NCBI GenBank assembly: GCA_903918045.1
Contig: CAIXCY010000154.1
Span: 1-64,000, forward strand
Direction of reading: 5' to 3'
From: an uncultured Bacteroidia bacterium
GTDB lineage: Bacteria; Bacteroidota; Bacteroidia; Bacteroidales; Prolixibacteraceae
Length of the DNA: 64,000 nucleotides
In this document: in pieces, positions 13,327-42,786 of the stretch
How positions within the stretch are numbered: position 1 is the stretch's first letter
How the letters are laid out: every line of letters starts with the position of its first letter
The notes under the pieces: model-generated
What the model was told of the DNA's origin: nothing
Database searches by the model: none
Seen by the model: only the letters and a program-made list of their open reading frames with translations
Translations under genes and position numbers: made by a program

Positions 13327-14535
13327 TTAAGAAAGAGCCGCAATTCCTGATCCAATCATATTCGCGCTTTCGATATTGGCAATATTCACTTTTATCTTTT
13401 TGTGTCCCATTTCGAAGATTAACTCTCTTAAAGTGCTTTTTACAATTTTATTATAGTCTTTACAACCTGAAACTTCGCTCCAGAAAAGGCTACCTTCAGC
13501 GGTTATCCTTACTTTTTTGATTTTTTTATCGTGTGTTGCAAGCAGGTCAACTAATCCGGCAAGAGATGCGGCAACTAATTTTGCAGACCGCTTATAGATC
13601 TCTTTTGCAACTTTTACCTGTTTCTTTTTATGCTTGTCAGATCCGTTTATAAGATCAGTAAGCGCTTTTCCATCAGTAGTTTCATCAAATCCATCTTCAG
13701 GGAATACCTCTCTGAGGATTTGTCCGATATACATTCCGGAAACTGCTTTTTCGAAGCGCTGGGCACCTTTATTATCCGATTTTTCATCAACAGCTTCATC
13801 ATATTTGGTCAGATGGGGCGGATTGAAATTGCCCGATTCGAGATTAACCGGTGTGAGCCCTTTCCAGTTCAGCGCGGGGTCGATTTTAGGGATTTGGTCG
13901 GCATTTACAAATGCAGCCATATTGGTTCCGGTTCCAACGATCAAACCGATATAAGCATCAAATTTCGGATTGGTTAATCCGGCAAAGAGGGAGGCAACGG
14001 TATCATTTATCACTTTTATCCCTGTAAATTCTCCTTTACCCTTGGCATTCAGGATATCCAGAAGCGGTTTCCCAACCGGATTCCCGATCATCTCTTTAAT
14101 ATCCATTCCTTTTGTCCAACGAATCAGTTCTGCATCGCCATTTGGCAAACATTCAGCCGGATAAGAAAAACAGTAGCCGATAGGCGCCTTAGCCGGTATT
14201 TCGATTTCATCGACAAATTCTGATTGTTTCGCTAAAAGATCCTCTTGTGAAAAGCCTTTGGTTGTAGTTGAGGAAAGTTCTCGGCCACTTGACTTTTCAG
14301 GGCTTATTGTGGCAACACCGTCAGCAAAATTAATGACTGCTGCACGATAATTCGTTCCGCCCCAGTCCAGAACAATGGCCTGTCCTTCAGCGCCAGCAGA
14401 GATGGGATGGATGTAAGTAGGGATACTTTTTACTTCGGTGTTGTCATTTTTTAAACCGGTGTTGATTTTTTCCCCAAGATTGAGGGCAATCTCTTTTAAT
14501 TGTGAAGTTTTGAGTTTGAATTCGTTCTTTTTCAT
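13327..14535 (-). CDS. Hexokinase (eukaryotic-type family)
   Basis: A 402-residue sugar kinase of the hexokinase family rather than the bacterial ROK/Glk type. The phosphate-1 loop appears as LDWGGTNYRAAV and the phosphate-2/adenosine region as GLIVGTGTNMAAFV; ...PIGYCFSYPAEC is the family's substrate-domain motif. It phosphorylates glucose or related hexoses with ATP in the cytoplasm. Bacteroidota commonly use this type. Its start codon directly abuts a 94-bp leader that is repeated ahead of ybaK (42693-42786), with a small ORF overlapping the start by ATGA. A terminator follows, so it is probably monocistronic. Confidence 0.93.
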   Translation of the reverse strand: MKKNEFKLKTSQLKEIALNLGEKINTGLKNDNTEVKSIPTYIHPISAGAEGQAIVLDWGGTNYRAAVINFADGVATISPEKSSGRELSSTTTKGFSQEDLLAKQSEFVDEIEIPAKAPIGYCFSYPAECLPNGDAELIRWTKGMDIKEMIGNPVGKPLLDILNAKGKGEFTGIKVINDTVASLFAGLTNPKFDAYIGLIVGTGTNMAAFVNADQIPKIDPALNWKGLTPVNLESGNFNPPHLTKYDEAVDEKSDNKGAQRFEKAVSGMYIGQILREVFPEDGFDETTDGKALTDLINGSDKHKKKQVKVAKEIYKRSAKLVAASLAGLVDLLATHDKKIKKVRITAEGSLFWSEVSGCKDYNKIVKSTLRELIFEMGHKKIKVNIANIESANMIGSGIAALS

Positions 14536-14624
14536 CCGTATATAATTTGTTTTTTAATTGCCGGATGGAACTCGCATGTGAAATATTCATCCGTATTTGT
14601 GTTTGCCGAACATGCTCGTTTCAT
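14531..14624 (-). repeat. 94-bp duplicated leader, copy A (upstream of hexokinase)
   Basis: This stretch matches 42693-42786 without gaps, 86 of 94 bases identical. In both places it ends exactly at the start codon of a minus-strand gene, yet the two genes are unrelated. Read on the minus strand it contains CGGATG and CATCCG arms enclosing a UUC/GAG inner pair, so a hairpin can form. The function is unknown: leader RNA, mobile promoter-bearing element or upstream ORF. Confidence 0.75.
14532..14624 (-). CDS. Possible 30-residue upstream ORF in the duplicated leader
   Basis: ATG at 14624 opens a 30-codon frame (starts MKRACSANTNTDEYF, ends KKQIIYG) whose TGA overlaps the hexokinase ATG as ATGA, so translational coupling is possible. 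The homologous leader before ybaK encodes a 28-residue relative (MKRASSANTNTDEYL...). Only two of the eight differences between the copies are synonymous, so selection on the peptide is not evident. It may be translated without a product-level function. Confidence 0.35.
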   Translation of the reverse strand: MKRACSANTNTDEYFTCEFHPAIKKQIIYG

Positions 14625-14687
14625 TATGATGATTTTAGATTTTTCCGTACAGTCAAAGATATTAAAAAGTAATGATATGCACAGCTA

Positions 14688-15194
14688 TTAGCCCTTATTG
14701 TTTTTAATGGTTCTCCAAGCTTTGAGCTTCGACTCCCATTTTATGGCATGTGCCGGACTTGTTGAGGGCATCACCTGATTTGACAGGATTACGTCCGAAA
14801 AATATTTTTTAAAGTATCCCTGTGCACCCTTTCCGTTGAAAATAATCCTGGAGATATTCTGATGAATTAATAAAAACTCCCTTAGATCATTCGGCTGTTC
14901 AGTTCGGATATCTATATCAAGACTGGAATGCCTGGTACATGTTTCCAATACATCCCAGAGGGCGATCCTATTTTGTAAAAGTAATTCTCTTCGGATCTGA
15001 TTTTCGTCTGAAAATGGGTGATTAAATAGTATAAACATAATCTTCCAGAAAGAATTTTGAGGGTGGGCATAATAGGCACCCTTTCTGAGCGATTCTTTTC
15101 CAGGCATTGTGCCTAAAATCAGCACCTTACTATGAATATTCGCGATTGGAGCAAAGGAATAAATTGGTGAATCAGATAACACCGTATTTTTCAT
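14688..15194 (-). CDS. DNA-deoxyinosine (hypoxanthine) glycosylase, UDG superfamily
   Basis: A 168-residue protein from the internal ATG at 15194; a frame extending to 15239 adds 15 non-conserved residues and was not preferred. It has the uracil-DNA-glycosylase-superfamily motif LILGTMPGKESLRKGAYYAHPQNSFW and a C-terminal VMPSTSPAHA, which match the family-6 hypoxanthine-DNA glycosylases. It should remove deaminated bases and start base excision repair in the cytoplasm. It stands apart from its neighbours. Confidence 0.85.
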   Translation of the reverse strand: MKNTVLSDSPIYSFAPIANIHSKVLILGTMPGKESLRKGAYYAHPQNSFWKIMFILFNHPFSDENQIRRELLLQNRIALWDVLETCTRHSSLDIDIRTEQPNDLREFLLIHQNISRIIFNGKGAQGYFKKYFSDVILSNQVMPSTSPAHAIKWESKLKAWRTIKNNKG

Positions 15195-31159: not shown

Positions 31160-31190
31160 AAACCTGTCAGGTTTGTAGTCTTTACAAACC
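31160..31190. repeat. REP-like palindrome, site 1
   Basis: AAACCTGTCAGGTTT (31160-31174, 7-bp arms) is followed by a second small hairpin, GGTTTGTA with TACAAACC (31170-31190). The end of the transposase gene lies in this element. It also falls at the MarC stop, so it may act as a terminator for both. Confidence 0.75.
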
Positions 31191-31832
31191 CAACCATTTT
31201 TCTAAATCTGTCACATCTTTACGATTGTCATGAGCGTTTTTAAAGTTTGCCTCATTATCAAACCATCCGATAACTTCCTCGCGTTCCAAATGGGTCGGTT
31301 TAATCGAAATGCAAGTCAGATATGACGACCATGGATAATCCATTGCATATTCTGTAAATCCATGATGAACTGGGTTGTTGTGAATGTAAACGACTACAGT
31401 TTTAAAATAGTCGATATCAGTTATCTCCTTACGTTTGAAAGGACGTTCAAAAAGAGCGCCATGACGTCCGTAAGTTTTATTGAAACCTTTTGCATAGGCG
31501 TTAAACAGGTTCGAAAAATATTGATGGGGTTTCGGTGATTTAAAACCTGACGGTGACCTTAAACCTGACAGGTTTTCGAAACCTGTCAGGTTTGGAGGAA
31601 GTAAACCTTCGGGTTTTTTTATCTCCCCTTCTTCCTTTATTCGTACCAACAGATGGAAATGATTCCTCATCAATACCCAGGTAAATGTATCGGCTATTGG
31701 TGAGATATGTTTATCGTACAGATTGAGAAAATATTCATAGTTTTCTTTCACCTTAAAAAGATCACACCCATTTATTCCCCGGTTGTAGATGTGGTAGAAT
31801 TTCTGAAAAGTCAACTCTTCCAGTTGTTGCAT
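31182..31832 (-). mobile_element. REP-associated tyrosine transposase (IS200-like Y1_Tnp, RAYT)
   Basis: 216 residues from the ATG at 31832; the frame opens earlier at 31889, but those codons translate the REP palindrome itself. The family features are FYHIYNRGINGCDLF, the HUH motif region LMRNHFHLLVRI, and the later GRHGALFERPFKRKEI with the catalytic tyrosine in DYFKTVVVYIHNNPVHHGF. Such enzymes mobilise short palindromes rather than themselves. The matching palindromes lie at both ends and, unusually, inside the gene (31561-31593), adding an in-frame loop rich in Pro, Gly and Ser after the HUH motif. No terminal repeats of a full IS were seen. Confidence 0.9.
31561..31593. repeat. REP-like double palindrome inside the transposase gene, site 2
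   Basis: AAACCTGACAGGTTT and its complement AAACCTGTCAGGTTT are joined by TCG, a 33-bp palindrome of two palindromes. A degenerate extra piece (AAACCTGACGGTGACC) lies just left of it at 31543-31558. It is in frame within the coding sequence. Confidence 0.85.
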
Positions 31833-31847
31833 TGTGTTGTAGTTTAA

Positions 31848-31880
31848 AAACCTGACAGGTTTCCGAAACCTGTCAGGTTT
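31848..31880. repeat. REP-like double palindrome, site 3
   Basis: The same 33-bp element as at 31561-31593 with one base changed in the centre (CCG for TCG). It lies just upstream of the transposase start and 12 bp beyond the end of the restriction-modification gene. Confidence 0.85.
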
Positions 31881-31891
31881 GTTTGTCAAAT

Positions 31892-35961: not shown

Positions 35962-36852
35962 ATGAATCCGTATTCCAGGCATTTGGTAACCCTATTTGTA
36001 TTAATGGTGGTTTTTGTGATATTTCCAAAGCAGACATTCGCACAGCAGGAACCGGTCAATTTTCAGGTGTTCTATGATGAATTGAGCCCATACGGGCAAT
36101 GGGTCAATTATAAGAATTACGGATATGTTTGGATACCCGATGTCGGATCTGATTTCGCCCCCTATTCGACTGCCGGTTACTGGCAATTTACAGACTATGG
36201 CTGGACCTGGGTCTCTGATTATGAATGGGGTTGGGCCCCATTTCATTATGGCCGGTGGGGCTATGATAATTTTTACGGATGGCTGTGGGTACCCGGGAAT
36301 GAATGGGGACCATCATGGGTGAACTGGAGAAAGGCTGACGGCTATTTTGGATGGTCACCAATGGAACCCGGTTTAAGTCTTAGCGTTAGTTTTGGAAGAC
36401 CATATGATCGAAATCACGACCACTGGATGTTTGTCCGGGACCGCGATTTTGAAAGGCATGATCTATACAAGTACTCCGTTAACCGAAGCGAGAATGCCCG
36501 GATTGTTGGCAACTCCTCAGTGATTAATACAGCCTATATCGATAACAGAAATACAACCTATGTTGCCGGACCCGCCAGGGAAGATGTTCAGAGAGTCGTT
36601 GGACGTACGATAAAACCAATCACAATTCGGGAGAACAGCAGACCGGGTAAAGACCAGAACAACGGAGATTTGCGGATTTACCGACCAAAAGTTGAAAAAA
36701 GTGTTGGTAGCCAGAGCAGACCTGCACCAGGTAGAATTTCAGATCTGAATGATGTTAAAAAACCATCTGAAAGAAGGGGAATCGTTCAACCCCGTAGTCA
36801 GGAATCTCAGAACATTAACCCCGTTAATTCACAACCCGCTCAACAGCAGTGA
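35962..36852 (+). CDS. DUF6600-like Trp/Tyr-rich exported protein (interrupted by an in-frame stop)
   Basis: 296 residues from the ATG at 35962 (the frame is open from 35878 but the signal peptide begins here). The signal peptide runs to about QTFAQQ. Residues about 25-140 hold the Trp-rich YGQWVNYKNYGYVWIP, DYGWTWVSDYEWGWAPFHYG and WRKADGYFGWSPM pattern of DUF6600-type envelope proteins. The tail is Pro/Gln/Asn-rich and disordered. Translation ends at TGA 36850-36852, but the same frame continues to 37203 with the same repeat, so the product is probably a truncated version of a 413-codon protein. Confidence 0.8.
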   Translation: MNPYSRHLVTLFVLMVVFVIFPKQTFAQQEPVNFQVFYDELSPYGQWVNYKNYGYVWIPDVGSDFAPYSTAGYWQFTDYGWTWVSDYEWGWAPFHYGRWGYDNFYGWLWVPGNEWGPSWVNWRKADGYFGWSPMEPGLSLSVSFGRPYDRNHDHWMFVRDRDFERHDLYKYSVNRSENARIVGNSSVINTAYIDNRNTTYVAGPAREDVQRVVGRTIKPITIRENSRPGKDQNNGDLRIYRPKVEKSVGSQSRPAPGRISDLNDVKKPSERRGIVQPRSQESQNINPVNSQPAQQQ

Positions 36853-37100
36853 ACTGCTACACCTGCCAATAGTAATGCCAGGCAACAACCTGCGGAAGTG
36901 AAGACACCGAATAATCGGGTAAAAGCACAACCTGCTCCACAGCAGCGAACTGTTACACCTGCCAATAGTAATATCAGGCAGCAACCTGCGGAAGTGAAGA
37001 CACCGAATAATCGGGTAAAAGCGCAACCGGTGCAACAGCAGCGAACAGCTACTCCTGCAAGTAATAATATCAGGCAACAACCTGCAGCAGCAGCGAGGCC
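36844..37100 (+). repeat. 96-bp tandem repeat encoding a 32-residue Pro/Gln/Asn-rich unit
   Basis: Units begin at 36844, 36940 and 37036 (the marker CAGCAG-CGA-AC spaced exactly 96 bases). Each encodes a stretch like RQQPAEVKTPNNRVKAQP. The third unit diverges after about 60 bases. In the first unit the CGA codon is TGA. Confidence 0.85.
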
Positions 37101-37203
37101 GCAAAACAATATTAACCGCACCCAGCCACCAAACAGTTCAAAACCACAGAATAGAAATGCGAATGAACAACAAAAAGAATCGAGGCCGGGAAGGAACAAA
37201 TAG
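36853..37203 (+). pseudogene. Downstream remnant of the DUF6600-like gene, same frame after the stop
   Basis: The codons from 36853 to the TAG at 37201-37203 are in the same frame as the gene upstream and continue its repeat (TATPANSNARQQPAEVKTP...). A start at 36898 exists but yields only low-complexity sequence without a signal peptide, so it is not a separate gene. One C-to-T change explains the interruption; readthrough or a sequence error remain possible. Confidence 0.75.
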
Positions 37204-42229: not shown

Positions 42230-42697
42230 TCAGGTTATAGCCCCTTTTTTTGCGTTACATGCAATCAATAAATCAGTTGGAGAGAGTCTGAGCTGCATTC
42301 CCCTGACCCCGGCGCTGATATAGATAAGAGCATGATTGAATGCTGATTCATCAATAAATACAGGAAATGGTTTTTTCATTCCAAGAGGTGAGCATCCCCC
42401 TCTGATATATCCGGTTAACGGTTCAAGTTCCTTCAGCTTTAGCATCGCCACCTTTTTGTTTGAACTGGCAATTGCTGCTTTTTTCAGATCAATCTCCTCC
42501 CCGCCGGGAATGATGCAGACAATATATCCATTTTTATCTCCCTCCAGAACAAGCGTTTTATATACCTGTATAATTGGGATTCCGGCAGTTTCTGCCAAGT
42601 GAATTGCACTTAGATCTGATTCATCAACGACATATTCAATAAGTTCATAGTGAATTTTTAGTCTGTCAAGAATTCTTGCTGCATTTGTTTTTTTCAT
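42230..42697 (-). CDS. ybaK: YbaK/EbsC-type Cys-tRNA(Pro) deacylase
   Basis: 155 residues. MKKTNAARILDRLKIHYELIEY, KTLVLEGDKNGYIVCIIPGG and GYIRGGCSPLGMKK are YbaK family signatures; the Lys-containing GGCSPLG loop is typical. It hydrolyses Cys mischarged on tRNA-Pro. Its start codon follows a 94-bp leader nearly identical to the one ahead of hexokinase. Confidence 0.93.
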   Translation of the reverse strand: MKKTNAARILDRLKIHYELIEYVVDESDLSAIHLAETAGIPIIQVYKTLVLEGDKNGYIVCIIPGGEEIDLKKAAIASSNKKVAMLKLKELEPLTGYIRGGCSPLGMKKPFPVFIDESAFNHALIYISAGVRGMQLRLSPTDLLIACNAKKGAIT

Positions 42698-42786
42698 CCC
42701 TATATCATTTGTTTTTTAATTACCGGATGTAACTCGCATGTGAGATATTCATCCGTGTTTGTGTTTGCAGAAGATGCTCGTTTCAT
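42693..42786 (-). repeat. 94-bp duplicated leader, copy B (upstream of ybaK)
   Basis: 86 of 94 bases match copy A at 14531-14624 with no gaps. On the minus strand the CGGATG/CATCCG arms are intact and the inner pair is CUC/GAG (UUC/GAG in copy A), so the hairpin is preserved. Its boundaries coincide with the start codon of the following gene in both copies. Confidence 0.75.
42700..42786 (-). CDS. Possible 28-residue upstream ORF in the duplicated leader
   Basis: ATG at 42786, TAG at 42702-42700, ending two bases before the ybaK ATG. The peptide begins MKRASSANTNTDEYL and matches the one upstream of hexokinase. Whether it is translated is unknown; see copy A. Confidence 0.3.
   Translation of the reverse strand: MKRASSANTNTDEYLTCELHPVIKKQMI

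Follow-up and report, generated by a model that had tools for sequence, protein, structure and literature searches.

In the window, i.e. the complete 64,000-nt stretch of DNA from an uncultured Prolixibacteraceae bacterium analysed here, two genes begin directly behind nearly the same leader, which raises the question of what kind of sequence can stand exactly in front of different start codons. A first-pass annotation had reported identity at 86 of 94 positions with no gaps, and this agrees with a repeat search of the window, in which positions 14528-14624 and 42690-42786 matched gap-free with 92% identity over 97 nt. In a DNA search of the own genome, copy 1 as query retrieved copy 2 at E = 3.7e-34, far beyond chance. 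Domain matches confirmed that the genes behind the leaders are unrelated, one encoding a hexokinase and the other a YbaK/EbsC-type deacylase. Position and match of the leader were as annotated, with the correction that both copies and both genes are located on the minus strand (Table 1). The match had also been said to end abruptly at the coding start; instead, both genes share a few further bases (ATGAAAAA), since the repeat is bounded at the 3′ end by ATGAAA, the hexamer with which each gene starts, and at the 5′ end by a second ATGAAA.

Table 1. Positions of the two element copies, their parts and the adjacent genes in the window.
Feature	Position	Strand	Remarks
Element copy 1, hexokinase start	14531..14624	-	94 nt including ATGAA at both ends; net unit 89 nt
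Copy 1, 5′ ATG	14622..14624	-	Place of the gene's old ATG, judged from empty orthologues
Copy 1, uORF from 5′ ATG (30 codons)		-	Its TGA overlaps the hexokinase ATG (ATGA)
Copy 1, predicted hairpin 1, 5′ arm AAC-GA-GCATG	14611..14620	-	Tandem G.A mismatch inside
Copy 1, predicted hairpin 1, 3′ arm CATGC-GA-GTT	14569..14578	-	
Copy 1, predicted hairpin 2, 5′ arm CATCCG	14562..14567	-	CAT alternatively able to pair with 5′ ATG
Copy 1, predicted hairpin 2, A-rich loop	14539..14561	-	Immediately 5′ of the start codon arm
Copy 1, predicted hairpin 2, 3′ arm CGGATG	14533..14538	-	Holds the hexokinase start codon (14533-14535)
Native promoter -7-like box TATCTTTG	14654..14661	-	5′ of copy 1; also present in element-free orthologues
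Hexokinase gene, 402 aa	13327..14535	-	PF00349/PF03727
Element copy 2, ybaK start	42693..42786	-	Hairpin 2 mismatched: CATCCG with GGGATG
YbaK/EbsC-type Cys-tRNA(Pro) deacylase gene, 155 aa	42230..42697	-	TIGR00011

The own genome (5.36 Mb, 281 contigs) contained 43 DNA matches at E ≤ 10, the weakest of them at chance level, and a covariance model built from 39 copies gave 35 matches at E ≤ 0.1 and 33 at E ≤ 0.01. When 60 relatives were included, 37 of 61 genomes had matches at E ≤ 0.01 and 24 had none; the richest had at least 64, 55, 49, 48 and 41 matches, these counts being lower bounds as at most 69 candidates were scored per genome. Across the phylum, 395 Bacteroidota genomes including the own were drawn evenly, with 10 candidates scored per genome; matches at E ≤ 1e-4 were present in 14 genomes, and four of these belong to other classes. 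Nine loci were read from this draw; in eight, an ORF of 179 aa or more opens directly at the 3′ ATG, in the ninth it does not. Among the matches listed from a strict-pattern search (80 of at least 118), those in named genomes had Bacteroidota titles and came from at least 37 assemblies, including the isolate Geofilum rubicundum JCM 15548 and MAGs assigned by title to Prolixibacteraceae, Dysgonamonadaceae, Odoribacter, Paludibacter and Lentimicrobiaceae. The pattern search also gave one viral contig match; the phage and plasmid collections searched contained no match. With about 35 copies in the genome and presence in 37 of 61 genomes, the repeat is not confined to two copies in one strain, the case which the first-pass annotation had named as speaking against it. 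A random duplication of two leaders, which it had held to be inadequate, is ruled out by the same copies in the own genome and in relatives.

No known counterpart was found in Rfam or in papers: the window had no match at gathering level, and nothing describing the element was found in the literature searches. Relaxed Rfam scans of window positions 14300-14800 and of five loci gave psbNH (10.6 bits), STnc240 (31.9 bits) and NsiR1 (24.9 bits), all below gathering level and off the listed element copies, one being near copy 1 on the other strand and two in the five loci.

For analysis of structure, 174 copies were used (217 listed matches minus 19 duplicates, 19 without a recognisable guide, i.e. 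the internal CAT, 3 not ending in ATGAA and 2 by length), only 23 of which are from the own genome. The order of the unit is ATGAAA, hairpin 1, TTCCAT and hairpin 2, whose closing arm contains the start codon of the gene, and the length from ATG to ATG is 88-92 nt in 129 of 174 copies. Hairpin 1 consists of an outer AAC/GTT, a tandem GA/GA and then GCATG/CATGC, GCCAT/ATGGC or other versions; one subfamily has Watson-Crick pairs instead of GA/GA (AATAGCC/GGCTATT). Hairpin 2 occurs as CATCTG/CAGATG, CATCCG/CGGATG, CATGTG/CACATG and CATACG/CGTATG with a loop that is A-rich as a rule. In two G019 copies (L312:4969-5107 and L315:6755-6894) the second loop is swapped for a longer one, and the A-rich loop is therefore not universal. 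The element ends ATGAAACGAG... and ...CNNATGAA are direct and not inverted repeats, and no terminal inverted repeats as in DDE-type MITEs were seen in the element alignments. A GT[AG]G foot was absent in the alignment, where ATGAAAC precedes hairpin 1 and TTCCAT precedes hairpin 2. Between hairpins 1 and 2, an additional CCCCGATGGATCGGGG hairpin is present in some copies. A hairpin like this was seen at the same point in both main subfamilies (L042, L043, L044, L050, L055, L058, L060, L061 and L062), a pattern that would result if another small repeat had inserted into the element and was then passed on together with it or through exchange.

The predicted folding is supported by covariation. 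Pairs 8-11 of hairpin 1, which were not used for register and belong to the unbiased pairs 6-11, were paired in 83, 84, 71 and 63% of the 174 copies versus 46, 47, 48 and 42% expected, while pairing at pairs 7 and 12 was no higher than expected. Pair 4 of hairpin 2 was paired in 94% versus 44% expected, a value biased upward, as are those of hairpin-1 pairs 1-3, because the guide was picked partly by these pairs and by hairpin-2 pairs 4-6. When the initial alignment of 39 copies was tested, all 500 shuffles gave a lower paired percentage and a lower covariation score; this did not apply to doubly changed pairs and pair types, two of the five covariation measures (145 and 494 of 500 shuffles as high), hairpin 1 being misaligned between subfamilies in this alignment. 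Minimum-energy folds of eight single copies (z from -0.9 to -2.4) contained both hairpins in five cases, the exceptions being window copy 2 with neither, L042 with the first only and L062 with the second only. For the internal CAT, pairing with the ATG at either end is conceivable; since the CAT and ATG bases are nearly invariant, this alternative pairing is without covariation support.

From the 3′ ATG, an ORF of at least 100 aa opens in 130 of 174 copies and one of 60-99 aa in three more. None of the other 41 falls within an ORF of 100 aa or more, and several of them lead a tandem as its first unit; here the next long ORF downstream runs in the same direction in 27 cases and in the opposite direction in 12, and is missing in two. 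As background, own-genome DNA taken around elements was used, in which the fraction of gene starts among non-genic sites was 0.35 (ATGAA) to 0.42 (ATGAAA); considering just the window, starts account for 22 of 46 non-genic ATGAA sites. Own-genome copies alone were at starts in 15 of 23 cases (p 0.003 to 0.02). This excess at start codons is moderate, and we read it as target choice plus selection and not as proof of start-codon recognition. Among the 130 copies followed by an ORF of 100 aa or longer, 118 have A as the sixth base, compared to 11 of 23 ATGAAN gene starts in the window. An additional copy precedes rpmH (52 aa, under the ORF length limit), an indication that the 3′ ATG can support strong translation.

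The reading frame of the first codon continues into the gene in 6 of the 133 gene-start copies; in the rest, it ends ahead of the gene's ATG or no more than a few bases from it. The resulting uORF resembles leader peptides with translational reinitiation, a system described in PMC4833913, in that it may end at the gene's ATG (TGA overlap in 43 of 133 copies). In contrast to such leader peptides, its length varies from 30 codons to 2 codons, so that neither a peptide nor a spacing is conserved, and the ATGA overlap is automatic when the frames fit. At the level of sequence, the repeat is established as a unit bounded by ATGAA(A) with two covarying hairpins, which stands before unrelated genes in tens of copies per genome in many genomes.

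For comparison of occupied and empty start sites, nine genes were picked from those own-genome copies that lead into an ORF of 100 aa or more, and part of their orthologue hits in 17 same-genus genomes was fetched. Rows were labelled filled or empty by hand and include repeat fetches of one site (L043/L173, L111/L172 and L062/L190). Filled rows were 3 of 18 for hexokinase, 1 of 17 for ybaK, 2 of 12 for the AHSA1-like gene of L039, 1 of 14 for the L068 gene (a weak copy, 30.0 bits), 2 of 9 for the L154 gene (one weak, 30.9 bits), 1 of 7 each for the L041 and L061 genes, 4 of 15 for the L043 gene (one insertion common to G000 and G010, each fetched twice) and 2 of 2 for the L062 gene (a single G000 copy fetched twice). 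L253 (a 51.7-bit element on the opposite strand, not at the start of the gene) and L180 (a 19-bit match) were counted as empty. Of the empty rows, 63 of 84 start with ATGAA; the main exception is the L043 family, in which 11 of 11 empty rows start with ATGCA or ATGGA, so that a prior mutation or an ATGAAA supplied by the element would be needed there.

Empty and filled sites differ by exactly one unit, around which UTR and promoter box align, most clearly for hexokinase and the L068 gene. The 15 element-free hexokinase orthologues consist of a TAYCTTTG box, about 25-35 nt and ATGAARAA, and in G000, G011 and G014 one unit is present between native UTR and ATG. Judged by these alignments, the unit stands in the compared loci exactly between the native 5′ UTR and the existing start codon, 3′ of the native promoter. 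The G014 hexokinase element belongs to the other main subfamily than that of G000, and the G000 copy is 98% identical to another G000 copy versus 95% to the G011 copy, which suggests separate insertions or conversion. Similarly, the AHSA1-like gene starts behind a subfamily 1 element in G000 but behind one of the AATAGCC type in G009; ten rows are empty. Tandem units share an ATGAAA (L132, L134, L135 and L147). In the loci set examined, orthologous pairs sharing an element were few (L019/L020/L320 and the window with L009), besides one paralogous pair (L049/L053), and two pairs had unlike elements (L138/L369, 69%; L136/L327, 58%). The few insertions common to relatives (L019/L020/L320; G000 and G010) indicate that not all insertions are young. 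The first-pass annotation would have counted a lack of conserved position in relatives against its reading; this lack largely holds, as most orthologues of the nine genes are empty with few shared cases, and is itself evidence for mobility. A conserved position before orthologues, as in a regulon leader, was accordingly not found in the nine genes apart from these cases.

Empty orthologues, differing subfamilies at two starts and the sharing of ATGAAA in tandems together point to a mobile element and probably not to a regulon. It is therefore likely that the repeat is a non-autonomous miniature mobile element of Bacteroidota that is aimed at ATGAA(A) and puts a new start codon in place. Its mobility and exact placement are well supported; it is very probably not a mobile promoter and probably not the leader of a regulon. 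This family of folded miniature mobile elements is new and widespread.

The first-pass annotation had offered two explanations, a mobile promoter or leader and a shared cis-regulatory RNA. The leader part of the former is borne out by unrelated genes, mostly empty orthologues and an exact insertion point. A repeat supplying its own transcription start would also be located 5′ of unrelated genes, as observed, but the promoter consensus used here (TAnnTTTG; PMC7366714), the only promoter type tested, was found inside the element in 0 of 133 gene-start copies, and well-aligned loci retain a TAnnTTTG-like box 5′ of the element, which makes a mobile promoter highly improbable. An exact TAnnTTTG was present within 120 nt upstream in only 23 of 133 gene-start copies, and the promoter is thus located for a minority. 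Where the native box can be aligned upstream, the unit is presumably transcribed as a leader. The folding expected of a cis-regulatory RNA is backed by covariation. A conserved riboswitch or protein-bound leader, spread by leader duplication and controlling a regulon, would account for the two hairpins, for the start codon in a stem and for the sense orientation of the majority of copies ahead of genes, and the excess of G.U over A.C at paired positions (78 versus 45) is a mild hint of RNA pairing. An ordinary regulon is contradicted by the non-conserved position: the downstream genes are unrelated, most fetched orthologues of the nine genes are without the element, tandem units share ATGAAA, 41 of 174 copies start no ORF of at least 60 aa, and the relaxed Rfam matches were weak and away from the copies. 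We consider this explanation improbable.

A further explanation is a REP/BIME-type repeat or an end pair derived from IS200/IS605, moved by a resident Y1 transposase (RAYT or subclass 1.2), which would give the same general picture as the miniature mobile element but as an ordinary REPtron. It is consistent with hairpins beside a short flanking target, with the presence of PF01797 (Y1) genes in 51 of 61 genomes, including all 21 with at least 10 element matches, and with Bacteroidetes subclass 2.6 Y1 genes, described in PMC6006769 as flanked by 'atypical secondary structures' with copies elsewhere. On the other hand, Y1/RAYT profile searches, flank scans and correlations in the 61 genomes linked no mobilising enzyme to the element. 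NF047646 (RAYT) matches were likewise present in 51 of 61 genomes (14 above the cut-off), and both Y1 and RAYT genes occur in element-free genomes too. Copies do not regularly flank these genes: of 48 distinct stretches surrounding Y1 genes, 4 contained the element (E < 1e-3), and of 30 surrounding RAYT genes none did (E < 0.3), frequencies that, without a formal test, are not clearly above element density, and one of the four positive stretches is L299, a Y1 gene with the element at its own start. Copy numbers correlated over 61 genomes (0.50 for Y1 and 0.63 for RAYT), as they did with genome size (0.54); within the 18-genome genus set, rho was 0.22 with p 0.38 for both. Moreover, two Y1 genes and the RAYT-like gene of the window carry other palindromes. 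Y1 or RAYT as linked mobiliser was therefore set aside, no clear link having emerged from searches, flanks or within-genus correlation, and we regard the REPtron explanation as rather unlikely. The left-end/guide junction gave 45 exact matches in 5 genomes, and all 30 inspected were complete short units. Four left-end-only BLAST matches were inspected for an enlarged autonomous unit; two were G019 units with the longer second loop, one was decayed and one (L314) had no recognisable second hairpin.

Both Y1 genes with other palindromes (that of L299 and a relative in L296) have a YIxNQ..HH motif and are flanked on both sides by a TACCGCTACGCGGTA-like repeated palindrome; the Y1 subclass with this motif is described in PMC6006769 as generally without typical terminal structures. 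The RAYT-like gene is located at 31182-31889 on the minus strand of the window (NF047646, 47.9 bits with a cut-off of 80), with AAACCTGACAGGTTT-type palindromes at 31561-31593 and 31848-31880 inside its frame, and is together with these likely an unrelated REPtron.

Several known repeats resemble the element in part. MITEs, ERIC, Correia and BOX/RUP are small non-autonomous interspersed repeats near genes. The element differs from them by its ATGAA(A) target, the exactly rebuilt start codon and alignments in which no terminal inverted repeats were seen. With REP/BIME and RAYT (TnpA-REP) it has in common short non-coding hairpin repeats in many copies, presumed to be folded single strands moved in trans. 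According to PMC6006769, REPs measure 21-65 nt and have a GT[AG]G foot; the element is longer (88-92 nt in most copies), consists of two dissimilar hairpins between terminal ATGAA sequences and occupies gene starts exactly, and no linked RAYT was found. IS200/IS605 elements are described as inserting site-specifically beside a short target, with guide-target base pairing next to hairpins (PMC6006769). Their ends and transposase-less derivatives are similar in the short adjacent target and the pairing beside hairpins; here, however, the target is the start codon, the same ATGAA is present at both ends, and one CAT could pair with either. Stem-loops of IS605 in Borrelia are also linked to genes, there at the 3′ ends of lipoprotein genes (PMC2775950).

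For the miniature mobile element, the following course of events can be proposed. The target would be ATGAA(A) itself, and the element may move as a folded single strand in which the internal CAT serves as guide for both flanking ATGs, cutting and joining being performed in trans by an HUH/Y1-type or similar recombinase. Upon insertion, the old start position would become the head of a short uORF, and the gene would be read from the 3′ ATG of the element, in the closing stem of hairpin 2 behind the A-rich loop. Loop and ATG may constitute a portable translation-initiation region, because copies before genes such as rpmH would otherwise be lost. As Met-Lys starts are common and insertions inside genes would be lost, surviving copies would accumulate at gene starts in sense orientation. 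Tentatively, and with somewhat less than an even chance in our estimate, these elements may represent a phylum-wide mobile class that uses the start codon as attachment site by CAT-ATG pairing, a rebuilt start and a portable initiation region.

Small mobile repeats are usually regarded as intergenic litter. The present family occupies the exact translation start and restores the start in many Bacteroidota. If the proposed course applies, it would insert nearly without damage at the 5′ edge of any Met-Lys gene, essential ones included, while the old start would turn into a uORF. The family would account for leader turnover between related species, provide a natural experiment in start-site replacement and point toward a recombination activity with ATGAAA specificity. 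A different repeat was observed at positions 36816-37103 of the window, where three 96-nt copies are arranged in tandem, the second and third with 86% and 72% identity to the first.
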